Source: Polynucleobacter asymbioticus QLW-P1DMWA-1 (GTDB lineage: Bacteria; Pseudomonadota; Gammaproteobacteria; Burkholderiales; Burkholderiaceae). From it: DNA of 64,000 nucleotides. The position numbers and the translations under genes were made by a program. The DNA is taken from positions 1,302,001-1,366,000 of the forward strand of contig NC_009379.1 of the NCBI RefSeq assembly GCF_000016345.1. The letters are read 5' to 3'. This document shows positions 4,249 to 20,910 of the stretch, piece after piece (positions within the stretch are counted from its first letter, which is position 1; every line of letters starts with the position of its first letter). The notes below the pieces were generated by a model. That model ran no database searches, was not told the origin of the DNA, and was given only the letters and a program-made list of their open reading frames with translations.

Positions 4249-5625
4249 ATGACCTCTGCACACTTATCCCGAGAACTTGCTACCTTTGCCTCTCAATTAA
4301 AACTGGAGGATATCCCCCCTGAGGTTATCGAACGCGCTGAAGATTTATTGGTCGACTGGTTTGGTTCTGCGGTTGCAGGCAAAGGAGCACGGGCTGTAGA
4401 AATCATTACTCAATTTGCGCAAAATATGGGCGGCTTTAATGATGTACATAGAGGCCCCTCCGAAATCATCTCCTCTCGCAAAACGAGTAGCCCATTTTTT
4501 GCGGCCATGGCTAATGCTGCAGCCTCACATGTGGTTGAACAAGATGATCTTCATAACAGCTCAGTTTTTCATCCGGCAACTGTTGTCTTTCCACCTGCGC
4601 TCTCTTGCGCGCAAGCGATAGGTGCCTCAGGCAAAGAGTTTTTATTGGCCGCTATTGCTGGTTATGAAGTTGGTATACGTGTTGGTGAATTTTTAGGTCG
4701 CTCACACTACAAGATTTTTCACACTACCAGCACAGCGGGAACGCTTGCTGCAGCCGCCGCTGTTGGACGCTTGCTCAAGCTCAATCCCGAACAAATGCTG
4801 CATGCTTTTGGGTCGGCTGGAACGCAATCTGCTGGCTTATGGGAATTTTTACGCGACGCTGCTGACTCCAAGCAACTCCATACAGCGCATGCTGCTTCGA
4901 CCGGTTTAATGTCAGCCTATATTTCGCAAGCTGGCTTTACTGGAGCCCAGCATATTCTTGAGGGTAAGCAAGGTTTGGCTGCCGGCATGTCAAACGATGC
5001 TGATCCTAGCAAGCTCACTGATCGCTTAGGCGCTCGCTGGGCCATCGCAGAAACTAGCTTTAAATATCACGCCTCTTGTCGTCATACACACCCAGCGGCT
5101 GATGCCTTACTGCAAGTCATGCTTAGCAACCATCTTCATGCGGATGACATTGCTAAAGTAGACACCTTCGTTCATCAAGGTGCAATTGATGTATTAGGTC
5201 CTGTGACCAACCCTAATACAGTTCACCAATCGAAGTTTTCCATGGGTACAGTATTAGCATTGGTTGCTTATTATCGATTTGCTGGTCTGCAAGAATTTGA
5301 TGAGCATTTTCATGATCAAGCCATTTGTGCATTTCGAGATCGCGTGACGATGACTTTAGATCCAGAAGTAGATGCCGCCTATCCACAACGTTGGACCTGT
5401 AAAGTCAAAGTACATCTCCATACTGGCCAAATATTAGATGGTCGCATTGATGAGCCTAAGGGCGATCCAGGTAATTCACTGACTCGTGCAGAACTTACTG
5501 ATAAGGCAATGCGTCTGGCAGCCTATAGCAAAGGCGCCAGCCCAGAAGAAATGCAAAAGGCCATTGATCGCTTGTGGAATATCCGCAAAGAGGTCAAGAT
5601 GGGTCCATTGCTTCCACAAGCTTAA
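4249..5625 (+). CDS. MmgE/PrpD family protein
   Basis: This family includes 2-methylcitrate dehydratase (PrpD) and cis-aconitate decarboxylase, both acting on tricarboxylates without a metal centre. The protein (about 458 residues from the ATG) has the all-helical PrpD domain, with the active-site stretch EQDDLHNSSVFHPATVVFPP near residues 100-120 and the conserved FHTTSTAGTLAAAAA helix near residue 160. The lid domain follows from about 270 (SFKYHASCRHTHPAADAL). An in-frame TTG lies two codons upstream, but the ATG at 4249 is preferred. Its place between a hydratase and a CitE-like lyase suggests C5/C6 acid breakdown. Whether it is a dehydratase or a decarboxylase cannot be told from sequence. 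Confidence 0.8.
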   Translation: MTSAHLSRELATFASQLKLEDIPPEVIERAEDLLVDWFGSAVAGKGARAVEIITQFAQNMGGFNDVHRGPSEIISSRKTSSPFFAAMANAAASHVVEQDDLHNSSVFHPATVVFPPALSCAQAIGASGKEFLLAAIAGYEVGIRVGEFLGRSHYKIFHTTSTAGTLAAAAAVGRLLKLNPEQMLHAFGSAGTQSAGLWEFLRDAADSKQLHTAHAASTGLMSAYISQAGFTGAQHILEGKQGLAAGMSNDADPSKLTDRLGARWAIAETSFKYHASCRHTHPAADALLQVMLSNHLHADDIAKVDTFVHQGAIDVLGPVTNPNTVHQSKFSMGTVLALVAYYRFAGLQEFDEHFHDQAICAFRDRVTMTLDPEVDAAYPQRWTCKVKVHLHTGQILDGRIDEPKGDPGNSLTRAELTDKAMRLAAYSKGASPEEMQKAIDRLWNIRKEVKMGPLLPQA

Positions 5626-5650
5626 TTAAAAAACCTATTTACCAGTCCAT

Positions 5651-6499
5651 ATGAATCCACTAGAAACGTCTTTAGGCTTTAGTACTAATTTTTTATTTGT
5701 TCCTGGCACTCGCCCGGAACGTTTTATCAAGGCGCTAGAGAGTGGTGCAAGCGGCGTGGTATTAGATTTAGAGGATGCGGTCGCAGAAGAAGATAAAGAA
5801 GCTGCCAGAGATGCAATTCGCACGGCATGGCCAAATTTTTCGGATGAACAAAAGAAGCACTTAGTCATTCGAACGAATGCCCCCGGCACAAAGTTCTATT
5901 CCAAAGATTTGATTTTGGCGCAAGAGTTAAAAGTGGGCTGCTTATTAATTCCGAAAAGTGAATCACTCGATCAGATTAATGGTGCCGCAATGATATTACC
6001 TAACACTGCCATTATTCCGATGATTGAAAGTGCCATTGGATTGGATTGTCTGCGCGAAATTGCTAACGCTAACCAAGTACTCCGTCTTGCTCTGGGAAAT
6101 TTAGATTTACAAGCTGACCTGGGCATGGTGTGCGACGCACAAGAATCTGAATTACAGTTTGCTCGATATCAAATTGTGTTGGCCTCGCGTGTCGCTCAAA
6201 TTGCCCCTCCTATTGATGGGGTTACACCATCTACTGATGATCTACCCCGTATTACTCAAGATGCAGAGCGCGCTAAACGCATCGGCTTTGGTGGGAAGCT
6301 ATGCATACACCCCATACAAGTGGCAGCTGTGCAAGCGGCATTTATGCCTACGGCAGAAGAACTCAGCTGGGCCCAAAGAGTGGTCGAGGCCGATCAGGCC
6401 TCTAGCGGTGGTGTAGCGAAGCTAGATGGACGAATGATTGACCGTCCCGTGGTCTTGCTAGCCAAAAGAACGCTTGCTGTTGCTGGTAAACACCAATAA
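5651..6499 (+). CDS. CitE-type acyl-CoA lyase (HpcH/HpaI aldolase superfamily)
   Basis: This is a 282-residue TIM-barrel lyase of the CitE/citramalyl-CoA or malyl-CoA lyase group, which splits a 3-hydroxyacyl-CoA in a Mg-dependent retro-aldol reaction. Visible motifs are FVPGTRPERF (residues 17-26), VVLDLEDAV (metal-site region, about 35-43), PMIESAIGL (about 120-128, with the conserved Glu) and LGNLDLQADLGM. The CIHPIQV segment near the end is typical of CitE-like proteins. In this context (S)-citramalyl-CoA cleavage to acetyl-CoA and pyruvate is the most natural reaction, but malyl-CoA or methylmalyl-CoA are possible. It lies 25 bp after the PrpD-like gene and is probably co-transcribed with it. 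Confidence 0.82.
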   Translation: MNPLETSLGFSTNFLFVPGTRPERFIKALESGASGVVLDLEDAVAEEDKEAARDAIRTAWPNFSDEQKKHLVIRTNAPGTKFYSKDLILAQELKVGCLLIPKSESLDQINGAAMILPNTAIIPMIESAIGLDCLREIANANQVLRLALGNLDLQADLGMVCDAQESELQFARYQIVLASRVAQIAPPIDGVTPSTDDLPRITQDAERAKRIGFGGKLCIHPIQVAAVQAAFMPTAEELSWAQRVVEADQASSGGVAKLDGRMIDRPVVLLAKRTLAVAGKHQ

Positions 6500-12255: not shown

Positions 12256-13049
12256 TTTGGAGCCTAAAAATGATAGGTGGATTCAACTACGAAGTGCAAC
12301 TTTGAACAACTAGTTAAGGAGGCTAAGGATGTTTTAGTATCCAAAGCTTCTAGACCTGCAAGTCAAAGTAGCCATGACCTATCAACACCTTAGCCAAACT
12401 GAACGATATCAGATTTATATCCTCATGAAAGACGGAAAAACCCAAACTCAAATAGCCCAACTGATGGATCGGCATAAGTCGACCATTAGCCGAGAGCTTG
12501 CTCGCAATACGGGGCTCAAAGGTTACCGTCCCAAGCAAGCCTGCCTGTTGGCAGAAGAACGCTCATTAGGCTGCCGTAATGCCGCCCAAATAACAGCCGA
12601 TCAATGGAATCAGACAGTGGATTGCCTCTTAGCTCAGTGGAGCCCCGTCCAAATTGCCAATCAGGTTGGCATTAGTCATGAGACCATCTACCGCCATGTC
12701 TACGCCGATAAAGCCGCTGGCGGCAATCTTTACCAGCAGCTGCGTTGCCAAAAAAAGCGCAAGAAACGCTATGCCAGCGGCCGTGATCGCAGAGGCCAAA
12801 TAGTAGGTAGGCGGCCGATCAGTGAGCGCCCAGCGCACATTGAGACAAGATCCCAAGTCGGCCACTGGGAAGGCGATACTGTAATTGGAGCGGCCCACAG
12901 GCAAGCTGTTGTGACCTTGGTTGAGCGCAAGAGTGGCTATGTCGTTTTGGCTAAGGTCAAGAACAAGACGTCGGATTTAGTCAGTAGCGCCATCATCACT
13001 AAATTAAACGCCGTGACCCCACTCGTTAAAACCCTGACTTTTGACAACG

Positions 13050-13273
13050 TACTAAATGCAAGAACTTTTTCCAGCGATAGGCAAAGCCATACCGTAACTG
13101 CAATTTGCAGTTAAAAAATCAAACTTACTACTTGTCTATACCCAAACGGTCACTTCCACAAATAAATCAGGGGTCCCGATTAACCATAATGAACACAAGA
13201 TCCGCCACTTCACGTTTTGGTCTTTACCCTACTTAAAACAATCTGAGGTCCCAGTGGAAGGTCCAAACATTAT
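13050..13273 (-). ncRNA. Candidate bridge RNA/seekRNA region of the IS110-type element
   Basis: The 224 bp downstream of the recombinase hold no gene. In IS1111-type elements this is where the guide RNA (seekRNA/bridge RNA) that selects target and donor sites is encoded. Paired segments are visible: CTTCCAC (13153-13159) with GTGGAAG (13254-13260), enclosing about 95 nt, and a tight palindrome AACTGC/GCAGTT at 13096-13112. I could not identify convincing guide segments that match the target GACAACGGCAAGG. The call rests on position, length and folding potential only. Confidence 0.45.
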
Positions 13274-14560: not shown

Positions 14561-14933
14561 AGCAATACTCCTTATTGATGATCTCGCAATCACCAGCATG
14601 GCTTAAATTGCTGCGGCTGACTACCATTCTGCATGTACTACGGCAAGGAATTTGCCGAGCACGCCAGGATTGATACAGCTCTTCAATCAACGACGTACTT
14701 TGCGGATCCGTTTGCTAGTTGGCAACGTGGATCAAATGAAAACTTCAATGGTCTATTGCGGCAATACATCCCCAAAAAGAGACCGCTATCTACTGTGACC
14801 GATAAGGAGCTTAGAATGATCCAAGACCGTTTAAACAACCGACCTAGAAAACGATTAGGATTTAAAACCCCCAATGAAGTATTTATGCAGTCTTTAAACC
14901 GTGTTGCACTTCGTGTTTGAATCTACGATAGGA

Positions 14934-14984: not shown

Positions 14985-15833
14985 CTACTCCTTTGCGATC
15001 TCTGCGACAACGGGGGCATGATCAGAAGGTTGCTCCCAACTTCTGGGAAGTTTATCAACAAAACTGGCACTGCATTTTTCTTTTAGGGGGTCGCTGAGCA
15101 AGATATGGTCTATCCGCATACCGGCATTTCTTCTAAAGCCCATCATGCGGTAATCCCACCAGCTGTAAGTCTTAGGTGTTTGCTCAAATATCCTAAAAGA
15201 ATCGCACAAGCCTAATTTAATGAGCGATTCAAATGCAGCTCTCTCTGGAGGAGAAACTAAATTCTGGCCTTCCCACGCTTTTGGATCATGTACATCTGCA
15301 TCGGCCGGAGCAATATTAAAGTCCCCCAATAAAGCTAAGCGAGTATTACTTTGTAACTCTTGCACGAGCCAGTCTTCTAATGACTGCATCCAATTGAGCT
15401 TGTACGCAAACTTGTCGCTATCAGGGGACTGTCCATTAGGGAAGTACGCCGAAATCAAACGAATAGGCTGCATTCCTGCAAATGGAATCGTGGCAGCCAA
15501 TATGCGCTGCTGCTCATCTTCGAAACCAGGAATATTTCTGGCCTGTTTTAAGAAAGTGGTTGATTCATCAGATGCAATTGGTGCCAATGCAGCTTTGCGA
15601 ACAATAATGGCTACACCGTTATAGGTTTTTTGTCCTGCTGCCAAGCTGACATAACCTTCGTCTTCTAGTTCTTGATGGGGATACTTGTCGTCAGTGAGTT
15701 TAAGTTCTTGCAAGCAAAGTGCATCAATTGGCTGGTTTGCTTGTTCCTGATCTTTTAACCACCGAATAACGTGTGGAAGGCGAACCTTTAAGGAATTCAC
15801 ATTCCATGCGGCGATTCGAATTGAATCAGTCAT
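14985..15833 (-). CDS. xth: Exodeoxyribonuclease III / AP endonuclease
   Basis: This is a DNA repair enzyme that cuts 5' to abasic sites and degrades duplex DNA from the 3' end. The 282-residue endonuclease/exonuclease/phosphatase fold shows AAWNVNSLKVRLPH (residues 8-21), LQELKL with the metal-binding Glu, GDFNIAPADADVHDP (Asp-Asn pair), MRIDHILLS and the terminal SDHAPVVAE with the catalytic His. Length is a little above E. coli Xth (268). Its start overlaps the end of ntrC by 8 bp, so it is translated with the nitrogen-control operon, though a functional link is not evident. Confidence 0.94.
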   Translation of the reverse strand: MTDSIRIAAWNVNSLKVRLPHVIRWLKDQEQANQPIDALCLQELKLTDDKYPHQELEDEGYVSLAAGQKTYNGVAIIVRKAALAPIASDESTTFLKQARNIPGFEDEQQRILAATIPFAGMQPIRLISAYFPNGQSPDSDKFAYKLNWMQSLEDWLVQELQSNTRLALLGDFNIAPADADVHDPKAWEGQNLVSPPERAAFESLIKLGLCDSFRIFEQTPKTYSWWDYRMMGFRRNAGMRIDHILLSDPLKEKCSASFVDKLPRSWEQPSDHAPVVAEIAKE

Positions 15834-17280
15834 CTATCCCCAATTCCTGTAATTTTCGTGTGATGGTATTGCGACCGATACCTAATCGCTGAGCCGCCTC
15901 GACTCGACGGCCACGAGTAACCTCTAGAGCTGCTAGCAATACGGCTTTTTCAAAACGCGAACATAAAGCATCGAAAACCTCTTTATCGCCATCCTGAAGC
16001 ATTTTGACAGCCAAACGACCAAGACCCGCTTCCCAATCACCAGGGGCAGTCTTGCTAACCACTGTAGCGCCAACTGAAGATTCACCCTGCGATGTAGCGA
16101 TAGGTAATTCGCTAGCCTGCGCAACAATATCTGCCGGTAAATCGCTCAAGCCAATGATATTAGCTGGTGTCATCACCGTTAGCCAATGGCATAAATTTTC
16201 CAGTTGACGTACATTTCCAGAGAAAGGCATGGCGCTCATCTCTTTCAAAACCTCGTCTGATAATTTCTTAGGTTCTACACCCAAAGATTTAGCGCATGCC
16301 AGCATAAAATGCCTTGCCAACATGGGAATATCCTCATTACGCTCACGCAACGATGGCATTCTTAGGCGAATGACATTCAAGCGATGTAATAAATCTTCCC
16401 GGAATAAACCTGCAGCAACACGACTCTCTAGGTTTTGATGTGTCGAGGCAATAATGCGCACGTTTGCCTTAATAGGATCGTGACCGCCAATGCGATAGAA
16501 ATGACCATCAGTTAAAACGCGCAAGAGTCTTGTTTGCAAATCAAATGGGAGGTCACCAACCTCACCTAAAAATAGTGTGCCACCATCAGCCTGCTCAAAG
16601 CGACCACGACGTAAAGCTTGGGCACCGGGGAAGGCACCACGCTCATGTCCGAATAATTCAGACTCAAGCAAATCTTTTGGTACTGCTGATGTACTCAATG
16701 AAACAAAAGGACCTTTAGCGCGCGGGCTGTGTTTATGCAAAGCATGTGCAATCAATTCTTTCCCAGTCCCAGACTCACCGGTAATTAATACGGTGGCATG
16801 AGACTGCGCTAAGCGGCCAATAGCGCGAAATATTTCTTGCATCGCAGGTGCTTGGCCAATAATCTCTGCGTCATTTAACCTAAAACCGGCCATTTCCTTG
16901 GAGCCTGACTCACTACGAATACCCTGCTCTACTGCACGATGAATTAGCTCAACTGCTTTTTCTACATCAAAGGGTTTAGTGAGGTATTCAAATGCACCAC
17001 CCTGAAAGGAAGAGACAGCCGAATCCAAATCGGAGTACGCAGTCATGATGATGACTGGTAATTGTGGGTGGCTAGCTTTAACGTGCTGCAGCAAATCCAA
17101 GCCATTCCCGCGAGGCATACGAATATCTGAAATCAGTACCTGTGGGGTTTCTTTTTCCAAGGCATTAAGCACATCATTTGGGTTAGAAAAGCTCTTATGC
17201 GGAATATTCTCTCGCGCTAAAGCCTTTTCTAAAACCCAACGAATAGATTGGTCATCGTCGACGATCCAAATTGGTTTCAT
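15826..17280 (-). CDS. ntrC: Nitrogen regulator NtrC (response regulator) with altered AAA+ motifs
   Basis: This is the two-component response regulator partner of NtrB. The receiver domain (1-120) has Asp52 as phosphorylation site (LISDIRMPRG) and Lys in LTKPFD. The AAA+ domain (about 140-370) has an intact Walker A (GESGTGKE). The C-terminal Fis-type HTH reads GIGRNTITRKLQELG. Two positions are odd: the sigma54-contact motif GAFTGA reads GAFPGA, and Walker B reads LFLGEVGD where NtrC proteins have LFLDEIGD, losing the first Asp. Both changes are direct codon readings (CCC and GGT). The protein otherwise aligns well to NtrC, so DNA binding is probably kept while sigma54 activation is doubtful. 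Confidence 0.92.
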   Translation of the reverse strand: MKPIWIVDDDQSIRWVLEKALARENIPHKSFSNPNDVLNALEKETPQVLISDIRMPRGNGLDLLQHVKASHPQLPVIIMTAYSDLDSAVSSFQGGAFEYLTKPFDVEKAVELIHRAVEQGIRSESGSKEMAGFRLNDAEIIGQAPAMQEIFRAIGRLAQSHATVLITGESGTGKELIAHALHKHSPRAKGPFVSLSTSAVPKDLLESELFGHERGAFPGAQALRRGRFEQADGGTLFLGEVGDLPFDLQTRLLRVLTDGHFYRIGGHDPIKANVRIIASTHQNLESRVAAGLFREDLLHRLNVIRLRMPSLRERNEDIPMLARHFMLACAKSLGVEPKKLSDEVLKEMSAMPFSGNVRQLENLCHWLTVMTPANIIGLSDLPADIVAQASELPIATSQGESSVGATVVSKTAPGDWEAGLGRLAVKMLQDGDKEVFDALCSRFEKAVLLAALEVTRGRRVEAAQRLGIGRNTITRKLQELGIDD

Positions 17281-18410
17281 GATGTTTTCTCCTGCTTGCG
17301 GTATGGAATTTGAATATGAAAATCAGTACGGCCTGGGCGACTATCGCATGCGATAAATCCCTGGTGCTGTTGAACAAAAGTTTGCGCCAAAGTAAGGCCT
17401 AAACCACTACCTCCTTCGCGCCCTGAAACTAATGGAAAAAAGATACGCTCAATAATCTCTTCCGGAATCCCCGGCCCGTTATCAATTACATGTAAATCCA
17501 TGGCTAACTTATAGCGATGTTTAGCAATCGTGACGGAACGCGCTACCCGGGTCTTTAATTCAATCTGCGCAACACCCAAACGAATCTCCTCGGAGAGTGC
17601 TTGCGCAGCATTATGAACAATATTGAGGGTTGCCTGAATCAATTGCTCGCGATCCCCCATGACATCGGGTAGACTGGTGTCATAGTTGCGAATAATTCGC
17701 AAGCCTTTAGGGAATTCCGCTAACACCAAACTACGCACACGCTCTAAGGCTTCATGTACATTAAAAGCCTCAATGACATGGGCCTTGCGGTGCGGCGCTA
17801 AAAGGCGATCAACCAAACTCTGTAGACGGTCAGACTCTTTAATAATGACCTGGGTATATTCATGTAAGCCCTTTTCAGAAAGCTCAAACTCTAATAATTG
17901 AGCAGCCCCACGAATACCCCCTAAGGGATTTTTAATTTCATGCGCCAAATTACGCATTAACTGCTTATTTGCTTCAACCTGTTGTGTTACACGTTCATCG
18001 CGCTCACTACGCAACTGCTGATCGATTGGAAACCATTCCATCATGATCAAACTAGGATCCTCAAGGGAAGCGATGACAACATGAGCTGGGACAGTGCCTT
18101 GATGAATGCTTCCTGGTACTGAATGCAACAACATTTCTTGACGTTGAGTGGCTACATGGCCATGACTGACTTCGCTAATCATGCTTGCAAGTGCCTCATT
18201 CTCACCAAATAAATCATGCACAGATTGACCCTCAAGTGATTTACGCGAAAGATCGAGTGCTGACTCAGCAGACTGGTTCACATAAACCAATTGTTGGTTC
18301 TGGGCCTCAAAAACCACGATGGCATTGGGCATTTGATCGAGCAATGTCGGAAAAAAAGGAGCAGCCGAAGCTGCTCCCTTGAACGAATTGCGCAATTTTC
18401 CTGCGCTCAA
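17277..18410 (-). CDS. ntrB: Nitrogen sensor histidine kinase NtrB
   Basis: This cytoplasmic histidine kinase controls NtrC phosphorylation in response to nitrogen status through PII. The 377 residues comprise a PAS domain (about 25-140), the H-box NLAHEIKNPLGGIRGAAQLL (phospho-His near residue 155) and an ATPase domain with N-box IVHNAAQAL, G1 VIDNGPGIPEEI and G2 GGSGLGLTLAQ. All kinase boxes look intact, unlike the partner NtrC. Its stop overlaps the ntrC start by 4 bp, and it begins 14 bp after glnA, giving the operon glnA-ntrB-ntrC. Confidence 0.94.
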   Translation of the reverse strand: MSAGKLRNSFKGAASAAPFFPTLLDQMPNAIVVFEAQNQQLVYVNQSAESALDLSRKSLEGQSVHDLFGENEALASMISEVSHGHVATQRQEMLLHSVPGSIHQGTVPAHVVIASLEDPSLIMMEWFPIDQQLRSERDERVTQQVEANKQLMRNLAHEIKNPLGGIRGAAQLLEFELSEKGLHEYTQVIIKESDRLQSLVDRLLAPHRKAHVIEAFNVHEALERVRSLVLAEFPKGLRIIRNYDTSLPDVMGDREQLIQATLNIVHNAAQALSEEIRLGVAQIELKTRVARSVTIAKHRYKLAMDLHVIDNGPGIPEEIIERIFFPLVSGREGGSGLGLTLAQTFVQQHQGFIACDSRPGRTDFHIQIPYRKQEKTS

Positions 18411-18424
18411 GTTCTTTCCTTCGC

Positions 18425-19840
18425 TTACAGGGAGTAGTACATATCAAATTCGATTGGATGTGTAGTCATACGGAAACGTGTGACATCTTCCATCTTCAAA
18501 TTGATATAAGCATCAATCATAGATTCAGTAAATACTCCACCGCGAGTCAAGAACTCGTGATCTTTCTTCAATGCATCCAATGCCTCTTCCAAGCTCGCGC
18601 AAACAGTTGGGATCTTTGCATCTTCTTCTGGTGGCAAGTCATACAAGTTCTTGTCAGCAGCGTCGCCAGGATGAATCTTGTTCTGTACGCCATCCAGACC
18701 CGCCATCAACAAGGCAGAGAATGCCAAGTATGGGTTAGCTAATGGATCAGGGAAGCGAGTCTCAATACGACGGCCCTTAGGGCTTGGAACGTGTGGAATA
18801 CGAATAGAAGCTGAACGGTTACGTGCAGAGTAGGCCAATTTCACTGGGGCCTCAAAGCCTGGAACCAAACGCTTGTATGAGTTTGTGCCTGGGTTAGTAA
18901 TCGCGTTCAATGCCTTAGCGTGTTTAATGATGCCGCCAATATAGAACAATGCGAATTCTGACAAGCCTGCGTAACCATTACCAGCAAACAAGTTCTCACC
19001 ATTCTTCCAAACGGATTGGTGAACATGCATACCAGAACCGTTATCGCCAACCACTGGCTTAGGCATAAATGTTGCTGTCTTGCCATAAGCATGCGCTACG
19101 TTTTGAATGACATACTTCTGCCAGATAGTCCAGTCAGCGCGTTGTACCAATGTGCTGAACTTAGTACCCAATTCGTTTTGGCCTTGACCAGCAACTTCAT
19201 GGTGATGCACTTCGACTGGAATTCCTAATGATTCGAGAATCAAACACATTTCAGAGCGCATATCTTGGAATGTATCTACTGGTGCTACTGGGAAGTAACC
19301 GCCTTTTTTACCTGGACGGTGACCAGTATTACCACCTTCGATTTCTGCGCCAGATGACCATGGAGCTTCTTCGGAATCAATCTTCACGAAGCAACCCTGC
19401 ATGTCGGCACCCCAACGAACGCCGTCAAAAATAAAGAATTCTGGCTCTGGACCAAAGTAAGCAGCATCACCTAAACCGGTGCTCTTCAAATACGCTTCAG
19501 CGCGTTTAGCGATAGAACGTGGATCGCGATCGTAACCTTTGCCATCAGCTGGCTCGATAACGTCACATGTGAGAACCAAGGTTGGCTCTTCATAGAATGG
19601 ATCAATGTAAGCAGCTGTTGGATCTGGTCTCAACAACATGTCAGAAGCTTCGATACCTTTCCAGCCGGCAATAGAAGAACCGTCAAATGCATGACCGCTC
19701 TCAAATTTATCTTCGTCAAAAGCAGAGATAGGAACTGTCGTGTGCTGTTCTTTACCCTTTGTATCTACAAAGCGGAAATCAACGAATGTACATTCTTTCT
19801 CTTTAACCAACTTCATCACATCAGCGACGGTCTTCGTCAT
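18425..19840 (-). CDS. glnA: Glutamine synthetase type I
   Basis: This enzyme makes glutamine from glutamate, ammonia and ATP and is the entry point of ammonium assimilation. The 471-residue GSI-beta length is usual. Visible motifs are FDGSSIAGW (52-60), the metal-site [24 protein letters not shown] (His and Glu ligands), the ATP-site segment [16 protein letters not shown] and the adenylylation site [10 protein letters not shown] (Tyr near 400). A good GAGGAG ribosome-binding site lies before the ATG. The 200-bp upstream region has NtrC-type palindromes and a weak sigma54-like promoter. Confidence 0.97.
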
Positions 19841-19875
19841 GCAAATCTCCTCTATTAACTAAATTTGGAATTCCT

Positions 19876-19892
19876 AAGCAAGGCATACACCC
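19876..19892 (-). promoter_or_regulatory. Sigma54-like promoter of glnA (weak match)
   Basis: On the minus strand GGGTGTATGCCTTGCTT keeps the essential GG-N10-GC spacing and a perfect TTGCT at -12, but the -24 box reads GGTGT against the usual GGCAC. A start site near 19866 would leave a leader of about 26 nt before glnA. Given the changed NtrC motifs, a sigma70-type promoter in the same region (TTGAAT, 18 bp, TGTATG) is an alternative. Confidence 0.4.
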
Positions 19893-19969
19893 TTGTTCAT
19901 TCCAGGCATTCAACATGCCTAACGGATGTATCTAATTTACTGAAGCAAACAACAGGGAATGATCATTAT

Positions 19970-19986
19970 TGCACTGTTTAAGTGCT
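19970..19986 (-). promoter_or_regulatory. NtrC-type operator site, promoter-proximal
   Basis: The palindrome GCACT-GTTTA-AGTGC (19971-19985) fits the NtrC consensus TGCAC-N7-GTGCA apart from the last base. Its centre lies about 112 bp upstream of the predicted sigma54-type start of glnA and 52 bp from the second site, which is close to five helical turns. Confidence 0.7.
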
Positions 19987-20020
19987 CAATTACCCGTTTT
20001 ATAGCCTGAAAATATCCTTT

Positions 20021-20039
20021 TTGCACTAGATTAGTGCAA
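20021..20039 (-). promoter_or_regulatory. NtrC-type operator site, promoter-distal, perfect palindrome
   Basis: TTGCACTA-GAT-TAGTGCAA is a perfect 8-bp inverted repeat around 3 bp and matches the strong NtrC site of enteric glnA enhancers. Its centre lies about 164 bp upstream of the predicted glnA start. It abuts the 3' end of the CinA-type gene. Confidence 0.8.
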
Positions 20040-20046
20040 ATTAGAC

Positions 20047-20910
20047 TCAGGTGATATCGTGAATCTCATAACCCAGCTCTTGAGTGCCAGCTCGCAAGGC
20101 AATCCAGGCGCTTTCCAGCAAATTGGCATTGCCTTTAATACCCAGTTCAATGTGTCTTTGGGCGTAAACGCCGTCCTTAGAGGCGTCTCCTACGGAGGGC
20201 AGGCTAAACACCTTTACCCCAGGGAAATTGGCCTCAATATTCTCCATCAGCGGGGTTAAGGTGGACTCAATGCCCTTGGGAACAATAAAGCTCTTCTCCA
20301 CCTTATTTTCTTGATGGAATAAATCCTTGTAATAGGTGTCTAAGCACCAAGCCATCATCGGCGCTGCCATCACTGGGAAGCCCGGTACAAAGTGATGCTC
20401 TTTGATCCGAAAACCCGGAATTTGGTTATAGGGATTGGGAATAATTTCACTACCAATGGGAAACTCCCCCATCTTGAAGCGATGTTGATTCTCTGGAGTA
20501 TTCAGATCAGATTTAATCGGATCACCTTCGGCCATCGATTGAATGCGGCCAGCAATCAACTCTTGCGCAGAAGGATGCAATTCTGTTTTAGTTCCTAATG
20601 CAAGCGCCGCACACTGACGCGTGTGATCATCTGGAGTGGCACCAATACCGCCCGTACTAAACACCACGTCACCACTTGCAAAACTCTCTTTGAGAGTGGC
20701 AGTAATTTGCTCTGGATCATCAGCAACATATTTTGCCCATGCAAGGCTCAGGCCTCTTTCGTTTAATAAATCAATCAAAGTAGCCATGTGCTTGTCTTGA
20801 CGGCGTCCCGACAAGATTTCGTCGCCAATCACGATCAAACCAAAACGCCTAGCCGCTTTAGCATCACTTGCCGGCTCATCAATTACCACTTTTTTCAATG
20901 CATCAACCAT
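20047..20910 (-). CDS. CinA N-terminal-type molybdopterin-binding domain protein
   Basis: This is a stand-alone MoCF/CinA N-terminal domain of 287 residues with no C-terminal nicotinamide-mononucleotide deamidase domain. The family motifs FGLIVIGDEILSGRRQDKH (near the start), VFSTGGIGATPDDHTRQ and IPGFRIKEHHFVPGFPVM are clear. Related proteins are annotated as competence/damage-inducible protein A or as nucleotide-cofactor pyrophosphatases; the real function here is not known. I prefer the ATG at 20910 (MVDALKK) over the ATG at 20931, because it gives an 8-bp overlap with the upstream gene typical of translational coupling. Confidence 0.82.
   Translation of the reverse strand: MVDALKKVVIDEPASDAKAARRFGLIVIGDEILSGRRQDKHMATLIDLLNERGLSLAWAKYVADDPEQITATLKESFASGDVVFSTGGIGATPDDHTRQCAALALGTKTELHPSAQELIAGRIQSMAEGDPIKSDLNTPENQHRFKMGEFPIGSEIIPNPYNQIPGFRIKEHHFVPGFPVMAAPMMAWCLDTYYKDLFHQENKVEKSFIVPKGIESTLTPLMENIEANFPGVKVFSLPSVGDASKDGVYAQRHIELGIKGNANLLESAWIALRAGTQELGYEIHDIT

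Follow-up and report, generated by a model that had tools for sequence, protein, structure and literature searches.

NtrC of many freshwater Polynucleobacter appears to have parted from sigma-54

We analysed a 64,000-nucleotide stretch of the genome of Polynucleobacter asymbioticus QLW-P1DMWA-1 (hereafter the window; G000:C1:1302001-1366000, where G000 is the host genome, a single contig of 2,159,490 bases that is 99.98% complete) and, within it, the gene of the nitrogen regulator NtrC, which reads GAFPGA in place of the motif GAFTGA. Judged from sequence, this NtrC is very probably decoupled from sigma-54, and it probably serves as an activator at sigma-70 promoters. The explanation that we favour as a whole, and consider likely, is a sigma-54-free NtrC that is gated by phosphorylation, binds ATP and acts via housekeeping RNA polymerase. 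Many freshwater Polynucleobacter appear to have an NtrC without its special polymerase partner, that partner's gene and its promoters.

Results

The gene in the window is a true NtrC orthologue. Its reading frame lies on the minus strand, the plus-strand translation of 15826-17280 being full of stops, and the NCBIfam model TIGR01818 names it NtrC over its full length with 647.3 bits against a cut-off of 558.6. Upstream and in the same orientation lie ntrB and glnA, giving the order glnA-ntrB-ntrC (Table 1); of 115 genomes, 108 have all three genes at the fetched locus and seven have ntrB and ntrC only. Two deviations given in a preliminary description of the window, GAFPGA for GAFTGA in the L1 loop and LFLGEVGD for LFLDEIGD in Walker B, were both read in the minus-strand translation, and its statement that NtrB, the phospho-acceptor Asp52, Walker A and the helix-turn-helix (HTH, Fis-type) are intact was confirmed by the sequence and by family models. 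A third change, absent from that description, is Ser196. The PDB listing pairs residues 139-365 of the window NtrC with chain residues 7-234 of PspF, an offset of 132 that sets Lys174, Pro218 and Glu240 at PspF K42, T86 and E108; by this offset, Ser196 and Gly239 should stand at PspF N64 and D107.

We extracted 115 NtrCs, 95 from the genus and 20 from outgroups chosen among 48 genomes of the order, and Asp52 is invariant in all of them. The alignment with relatives that had been suggested earlier contains 70 NtrCs from the genus with a loop of the form GA[FV][PQNL]GA; Pro218 is found in 63, Ser196 likewise in 63 and the Walker B Gly239 in 36, and all 34 canonical NtrCs have Asn, Thr and Asp at the three positions. 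K174 of Walker A and the first Arg of FREDLLHR are kept in 70/70, the second Arg in 68/70. What is retained alongside the changed loop is the kinase, the phospho-Asp, the ATP-binding loop, the arginine fingers, the HTH and the glnA boxes. As for the traits of a sigma-54-dependent bacterial enhancer-binding protein (bEBP), the window NtrC has Walker A and the arginine fingers and lacks GAFTGA, the Walker B DE and the glutamate-switch Asn, and its genome lacks rpoN and good sigma-54 promoters at torF and glnA. This NtrC shares with the Rhodobacter capsulatus type a loop without GAFTGA and retained ATP-binding residues, by substitution and not by deletion.

A genome search for rpoN and for other GAFTGA activators, called for in the preliminary description, returned from the host genome no rpoN and, at E<1e-30, no second activator. 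There was no match to Pfam PF04552 or PF04963, and the lptB-hpf gap is 176 bp long with no rpoN match inside; a hidden rpoN is ruled out by these two models and the empty site. NtrC was the only match to Pfam Sigma54_activat at E<1e-30, three weak PF00158 matches having been taken, uninspected, as unrelated AAA+ proteins. Elsewhere, PF04963 was found in 40 of 101 genus genomes (an even draw from a larger group) and PF04552 in 46 of 48 order genomes, the exceptions G111 and G112 also being without a close NtrC (best E 1.3e-13, and no match). Outgroup G079 shows the order lptA-lptB-rpoN-hpf, which in G026 and G062 is extended by ptsN-hprK (apart from rpoN and hpf, these names are our own reading of the sequence). 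In most genus genomes this ancestral site is without rpoN. From the coordinates of rpoN and hpf, the rpoN-bearing genus genomes divide into 12 with the gene at the ancestral site, 27 with it elsewhere and G122, which is unplaceable. Among 42 lptB-hpf junction rows G062 is intact; the other 41 (40 genomes, G016 twice) have no intact rpoN and gaps of 48-413 bp, with clear rpoN remnants in G068 and G053 and marginal matches in G130 (E 0.004) and G072 (E 0.01).

The state of the loop was set against these losses. GAFTGA occurs in none of the 59 genus genomes in which no rpoN was found, although absence is less sure in 11 of them, which are <90% complete; their loops are GAFPGA (44), GAFQGA (3), GAFNGA (2), GAFLGA (1), GAVPGA (1), AQFGNT (4) and GAFANA (4). 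With rpoN at the ancestral site, GAFTGA is present in 10/10 (G009 and G056, of the 12, gave no full NtrC). The 26 genomes with rpoN elsewhere comprise four canonical (three GAFTGA, one GSFTGA) and 22 non-canonical ones. Every canonical genus genome tabulated thus has rpoN, 10 at the ancestral site and four elsewhere, and the order outgroups have G[AS]FTGA in 20/20. We kept 80 further NtrC records, of which 67, at ≤68% identity, all have GAFTGA, Asn196 and DE; by title these are mostly betaproteobacterial, a few having broad titles only and one being titled Akkermansia. The other 13, at ≥74% identity, are 12 GAFPGA and one AWYGAT, a further loop type from the Polynucleobacter-like metagenome-assembled genome bin-0185 (L368, NtrC match at 5001-6449). 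A strain-specific mutation, which the preliminary description had named beforehand as the finding that would tell against it, does not account for these data, since the changes are shared across many species of the genus, no rpoN-less genome is canonical and the canonical relatives all bear rpoN. A sequencing error or one-strain mutation is ruled out by the same sharing.

In the host genome, the only one in which this order was viewed, torF is followed by genes for a P-II protein (glnK) and an ammonium transporter (amtB). From 92 genomes with a match we read the torF upstream regions of 50 loci, the 30 closest and 20 chosen ones; G056 was dropped (39 bases only) and G009 has the torF site but no NtrC, so that 48 genomes with NtrC were counted. 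The sigma-54 score is at least 10.4, a value reached by 0.5% of shuffles, in 11/11 canonical genomes, whereas the 37 non-canonical ones all stay below 9.7; eight of these 37 have rpoN elsewhere, and none of the eight keeps the site. Together with the missing rpoN and the lack of canonical loops in rpoN-less genomes, this loss in 37/37 supports the sigma-54 independence that had been suspected from the window. Upstream of torF, several GAFPGA genomes show an A+T-rich AATAT(A/T)AA stretch with a box-like palindrome on either side, the pair being about 21 bp apart.

At glnA, the sigma-54 score is at least 10.4 in 9/10 genomes with ancestral rpoN (the exception being G062), below 9.7 in 3/3 readable canonical genomes with rpoN elsewhere, at least 9.7 in 14/17 outgroups and between 9.7 and 10.4 in 3/66 non-canonical genomes, with none higher. 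What the leader does contain is two predicted NtrC boxes 52 bp apart and then a 28-bp block, an arrangement conserved in 51 aligned GAF[PQNL]GA genomes. Of the 70 leaders 57 were readable, and G010, G016, G033, G044, G063 and G144 were excluded from the alignment; their box spacing is 42 bp in G010, G044, G063 and G144, 52 in G016 and 51 in G033. In GAFANA-type genomes glnA is preceded, at about 98 bases, by one box, and each of the 66 non-canonical leaders read holds at least one box with at least 8/10 matches. We read the 28-bp block as a weak housekeeping promoter, which would place the glnA start near 19918. Close to this putative 5' end lies the palindrome AGGCATGTTGAATGCCT (19904-19920, minus strand), mostly conserved in the 51 genomes, which might fold into a 5' hairpin or be what remains of a GG-N10-GC promoter. 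No credible known RNA element was found around glnA-ntrBC, all eight Rfam matches lying well below gathering scores.

Across the host genome, the pattern GCACY-N5-RGTGC has 10 sites against three for the reversed control: two before glnA, one each at urtA (TIGR03407), torF (TIGR02001) and an ATP-grasp gene, and five within genes, one of these cobA-like. The box upstream of the ATP-grasp gene, which is of the circularly permuted kind (PF14403; L302, box at 1501), makes nitrogen regulation of that gene possible.

Such boxes might also be those of a repressor: NtrC could act chiefly as a repressor, or as a dual regulator, at constitutive sigma-70 promoters and, with sigma-54 gone, only block or tune glnA and glnK-amtB. 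The torF box of several GAFPGA genomes does lie beside the AATAT(A/T)AA stretch, a possible -10 element, and Caulobacter NtrC is described as acting on sigma-70 promoters and repressing some of them (PMC10274813). However, the conserved promoter-like block at glnA has both boxes on its upstream side, and the residues for ATP binding and phosphorylation persist, although a repressor that simply binds DNA would have no need of them. We thus regard repression as unlikely to be the main function and prefer activation by NtrC.

Table 1. Coordinates of the features discussed, counted from the first base of the window
Feature	Position	Strand	Remarks
ntrC	15826..17280	minus	484 aa; receiver, AAA+ (GAFPGA, GE Walker B), Fis-type HTH
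Walker B codons	16552..16575	minus	LFLGEVGD, residues 236-243; Gly at Asp position 239
L1 loop codons	16621..16638	minus	GAFPGA, residues 215-220; Pro at GAFTGA Thr position 218
Residue 196 codon	16693..16695	minus	Ser; by offset the counterpart of PspF N64 (glutamate switch)
Walker A codons	16756..16779	minus	GESGTGKE, residues 168-175; intact
Asp52 codon	17125..17127	minus	phospho-acceptor
ntrB	17277..18410	minus	histidine kinase NR(II); NF008293, 300.8 bits vs cut-off 240
glnA	18425..19840	minus	glutamine synthetase (Pfam)
28-bp non-coding block	19925..19952	minus	candidate housekeeping promoter TTGTTT-16-TACATC; weak consensus match
NtrC box 2 (predicted)	19971..19985	minus	GCACTTAAACAGTGC; 52 bp from box 1
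NtrC box 1 (predicted)	20023..20037	minus	GCACTAATCTAGTGC; starts 197 bases before glnA ATG

The three changes look staged. Among the 70 GA[FV][PQNL]GA genomes, seven have Asn196 and Asp239, 27 Ser196 and Asp239, and 36 Ser196 and Gly239; Asn and Asp are kept in four AQFGNT and seven GAFANA/GAVPNA genomes. This distribution suggests that Thr218 changed first, followed by Asn196 to Ser and then by Asp239 of Walker B to Gly. In an IQ-TREE tree of GlnA, NtrB and NtrC (76 rows chosen from 108), the loop state changes at least two times and the Walker B state once, and the loop therefore appears to have been lost at least twice within one genus. This tree includes NtrC, the bearer of the trait, from which the loop and Walker B columns alone had been removed. 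A FastTree tree of GlnA and NtrB alone nests the canonical G062, G067, G068 and G148 in the non-canonical clade (supports 0.92, 0.71 and 0.98), which, were it true, would require further losses of the loop or its regain. Adding NtrC makes the G062 group sister to the non-canonical clade (0.97), and the same is seen in IQ-TREE (Shimodaira-Hasegawa-like approximate likelihood ratio test, SH-aLRT, 95).

Alternatively, NtrC might be a relic in early decay, retained by chance in small genomes after the loss of rpoN. Three coupling or catalytic residues are indeed changed, G023 NtrC is shortened to 447 aa, and torF boxes were not found in 21/37 non-canonical genomes. Yet 94/95 genus NtrCs are open at 478-498 aa, the glnA boxes are conserved, and the AAA+ domain of the GA[FV][PQNL]GA groups seems no less constrained than that of the canonical native group. 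The median ratio of nonsynonymous to synonymous substitution rates (dN/dS) of this domain is 0.017 in the Gly239 group (133/630 pairs) and 0.014 in the other GAF[PQN]GA group (120/528), versus 0.023 in the canonical native group (7/36); AQFGNT gives 0.037 (4/6) and GAFANA/GAVPNA 0.024 (1/21), both from few pairs, and the outgroup 0.105 (90/190), all values being rough because pairs with dS outside 0.1-2 were dropped. In the loop, G215, A216, F217, G219 and A220 each show ≥99% conservation across the 70 genomes (Pro218 90%); with five of six residues thus nearly fixed, the loop is not drifting in them, though AQFGNT and GAFANA show that loop loss can happen. Altogether, we consider a relic extremely unlikely.

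Several observations weigh against a conserved NtrC working through the housekeeping polymerase. An NtrC box of a relaxed pattern precedes torF in 10/11 canonical genomes but in only 16/37 non-canonical ones; near-matches to the torF box exist in other non-canonical genomes. A consensus sigma-70 scan of window positions 19700-20200 gave no promoter-like site and missed the 28-bp block, ruling out a textbook sigma-70 promoter at glnA. The canonical G062, G067, G068 and G148 are already without a good sigma-54 site at glnA, and these four suggest that in the G062 group the departure of glnA from sigma-54 preceded the change of the loop. Having only two independent loop-loss pairs, the association of loop and promoter cannot reach significance on the tree. 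Finally, rpoN presence alone is no predictor of the loop, as 22/26 genomes with displaced rpoN are non-canonical, and most of the clade has a GG-N10-GC element at -80 of the glnA leader with a score of 9.1, where 9% of shuffles reach 9.0. The last two points would also be expected if NtrC still worked with a missed sigma-54, or with displaced RpoN in other genomes, GAFPGA being a tolerated variant. This we judge very improbable: the complete host genome is negative for PF04552 and PF04963, so that the idea is hardly tenable there, none of the eight rpoN-bearing non-canonical genomes read keeps the torF site, and sigma-54 activation is mostly lost when the Thr of GAFTGA is replaced (PMC3162934).

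Discussion

We thus return to an NtrC that has left sigma-54 and propose the following mechanism. Under nitrogen limitation, NtrB would phosphorylate NtrC; NtrC-P would bind ATP and oligomerise on the pair of glnA boxes, which lie some 60 and 112 bp ahead of the putative start, and through contact it would recruit or stabilise housekeeping (sigma-70) RNA polymerase. For members of the Walker B Gly subclade, ATP would hardly have to be hydrolysed, if at all, as reported for R. capsulatus NtrC. Since the GAF-GA residues are nearly invariant in the main clade, the loop may have found a new contact, as this conservation suggests.

Work on PspF helps to weigh the single residues. Its N64-E108 pair couples the nucleotide to the loop, and PspF N64S is still able to engage sigma-54 polymerase and support transcription (PMC4132715); hence, Ser196 alone would not end the use of sigma-54. 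PspF D107A has a Km of 300 versus 250 uM, while its Vmax is 0.23 rather than 39.5 per min, with >99% of turnover lost (PMC3419264). As apparent affinity is kept and turnover lost, we predict by analogy that ATP hydrolysis is likely dispensable in the Gly239 group. More tentatively, and with somewhat less confidence than doubt, we suggest that glnA left sigma-54 first, with a canonical NtrC still in place, followed by the torF-glnK-amtB promoter together with the loop Thr, then by the glutamate-switch Asn and then by the Walker B Asp. An ATP-hydrolysing sigma-54 remodeller would in this way have been turned, stepwise and repeatedly, into an activator of the housekeeping polymerase that is gated by ATP.

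Among the closest known systems is the NtrC of the alphaproteobacterium R. capsulatus, an orthologue that also lacks GAFTGA and is reported to act with sigma-70 and to need phosphorylation and ATP binding but not hydrolysis (Bowman and Kranz 1998 as cited in PMC10274813). Its L1 loop is deleted, whereas Polynucleobacter in most genomes keeps the loop length and replaces Thr, changes the Walker B Asp and the glutamate-switch Asn as well in subclades, and has lost rpoN in many species. Caulobacter crescentus NtrC has likewise lost GAFTGA, is needed for glnA and works at sigma-70 promoters, yet it carries an eight-residue loop deletion and requires its Walker B Asp235, where the window NtrC has Gly; Caulobacter also has the GAFTGA activators FlbD and TacA (PMC10274813). 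The earlier proposal of an independent solution by point changes fits this comparison, both of these cases being loop deletions. TyrR, DhaR, HupR and VpsR resemble the window protein in having the AAA+ activator fold without a working GAFTGA, the first three being given as sigma-70 dependent, but they are bEBP paralogues, regulators other than NtrC; among about 110 deviant homologues, which may or may not include Polynucleobacter, Pro is the preferred replacement of Thr/Ser at loop position 4 (PMC3162934). Canonical betaproteobacterial NtrC has the same glnA-ntrB-ntrC order, receiver, HTH and kind of glnA box, but it is sigma-54-dependent, whereas the window NtrC is without GAFTGA, Asn196, Asp239 and sigma-54 promoters.

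These findings bear on the question of how an AAA+ sigma-54 activator can switch to the other class of RNA polymerase. The examples of such an NtrC that we found described are two alphaproteobacterial proteins, both with loop deletions, and none of the open-licence papers listed in our searches reports the Polynucleobacter case. Polynucleobacter offers relatives at each stage, namely canonical, loop changed, loop and glutamate switch changed, and loop, switch and Walker B changed, as in genomes like G026, G010, G064 and G000 respectively, with and without rpoN. The order of steps and the need for hydrolysis are therefore testable with natural proteins. Since the family model TIGR01818 names the window protein an ordinary NtrC, a sigma-54 regulon would be wrongly predicted for it.

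Displaced rpoN and neighbouring genes

We viewed the context of displaced rpoN in 12 genomes (G010, G018, G035, G048, G060, G064, G030, G143, G068, G003, G045 and G067); the other 15 were classed as lying elsewhere from positions only. The gene adjoins flgA in G018, and G035 and G048 have the same neighbourhood. About 28 kb away from rpoN, G010 has FliF, FliG, a FliI-type ATPase and a second bEBP, and the rpoN-side neighbours tried there gave no flagellar family match; G003 and G045 have another context in common. That all displaced copies are flagellar holds only in part. In the RpoN tree, the displaced copies fall in several groups. A second rpoN of G143 (G143:C1:1325000-1342000) lies beside a NifA-like bEBP and a sulfonate-type substrate-binding protein. 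For G062, the RpoN tree gives the ancestral rpoN a long branch, and in the same genome glnA has no good sigma-54 site while the torF site is perfect; this rpoN is possibly on its way out.

In the window, ntrC shares the 8 bp at its 3' end (15826-15833) with the start of the open reading frame 14985-15833, which encodes an Exo_endo_phos protein, probably exodeoxyribonuclease III. Beyond it, a transposase frame that we take as IS30-like (plus strand; 12374-13114 and, for a C-terminal piece, 14633-14920) is broken by an IS110-family transposase (PF02371; 13274-14599, minus strand).

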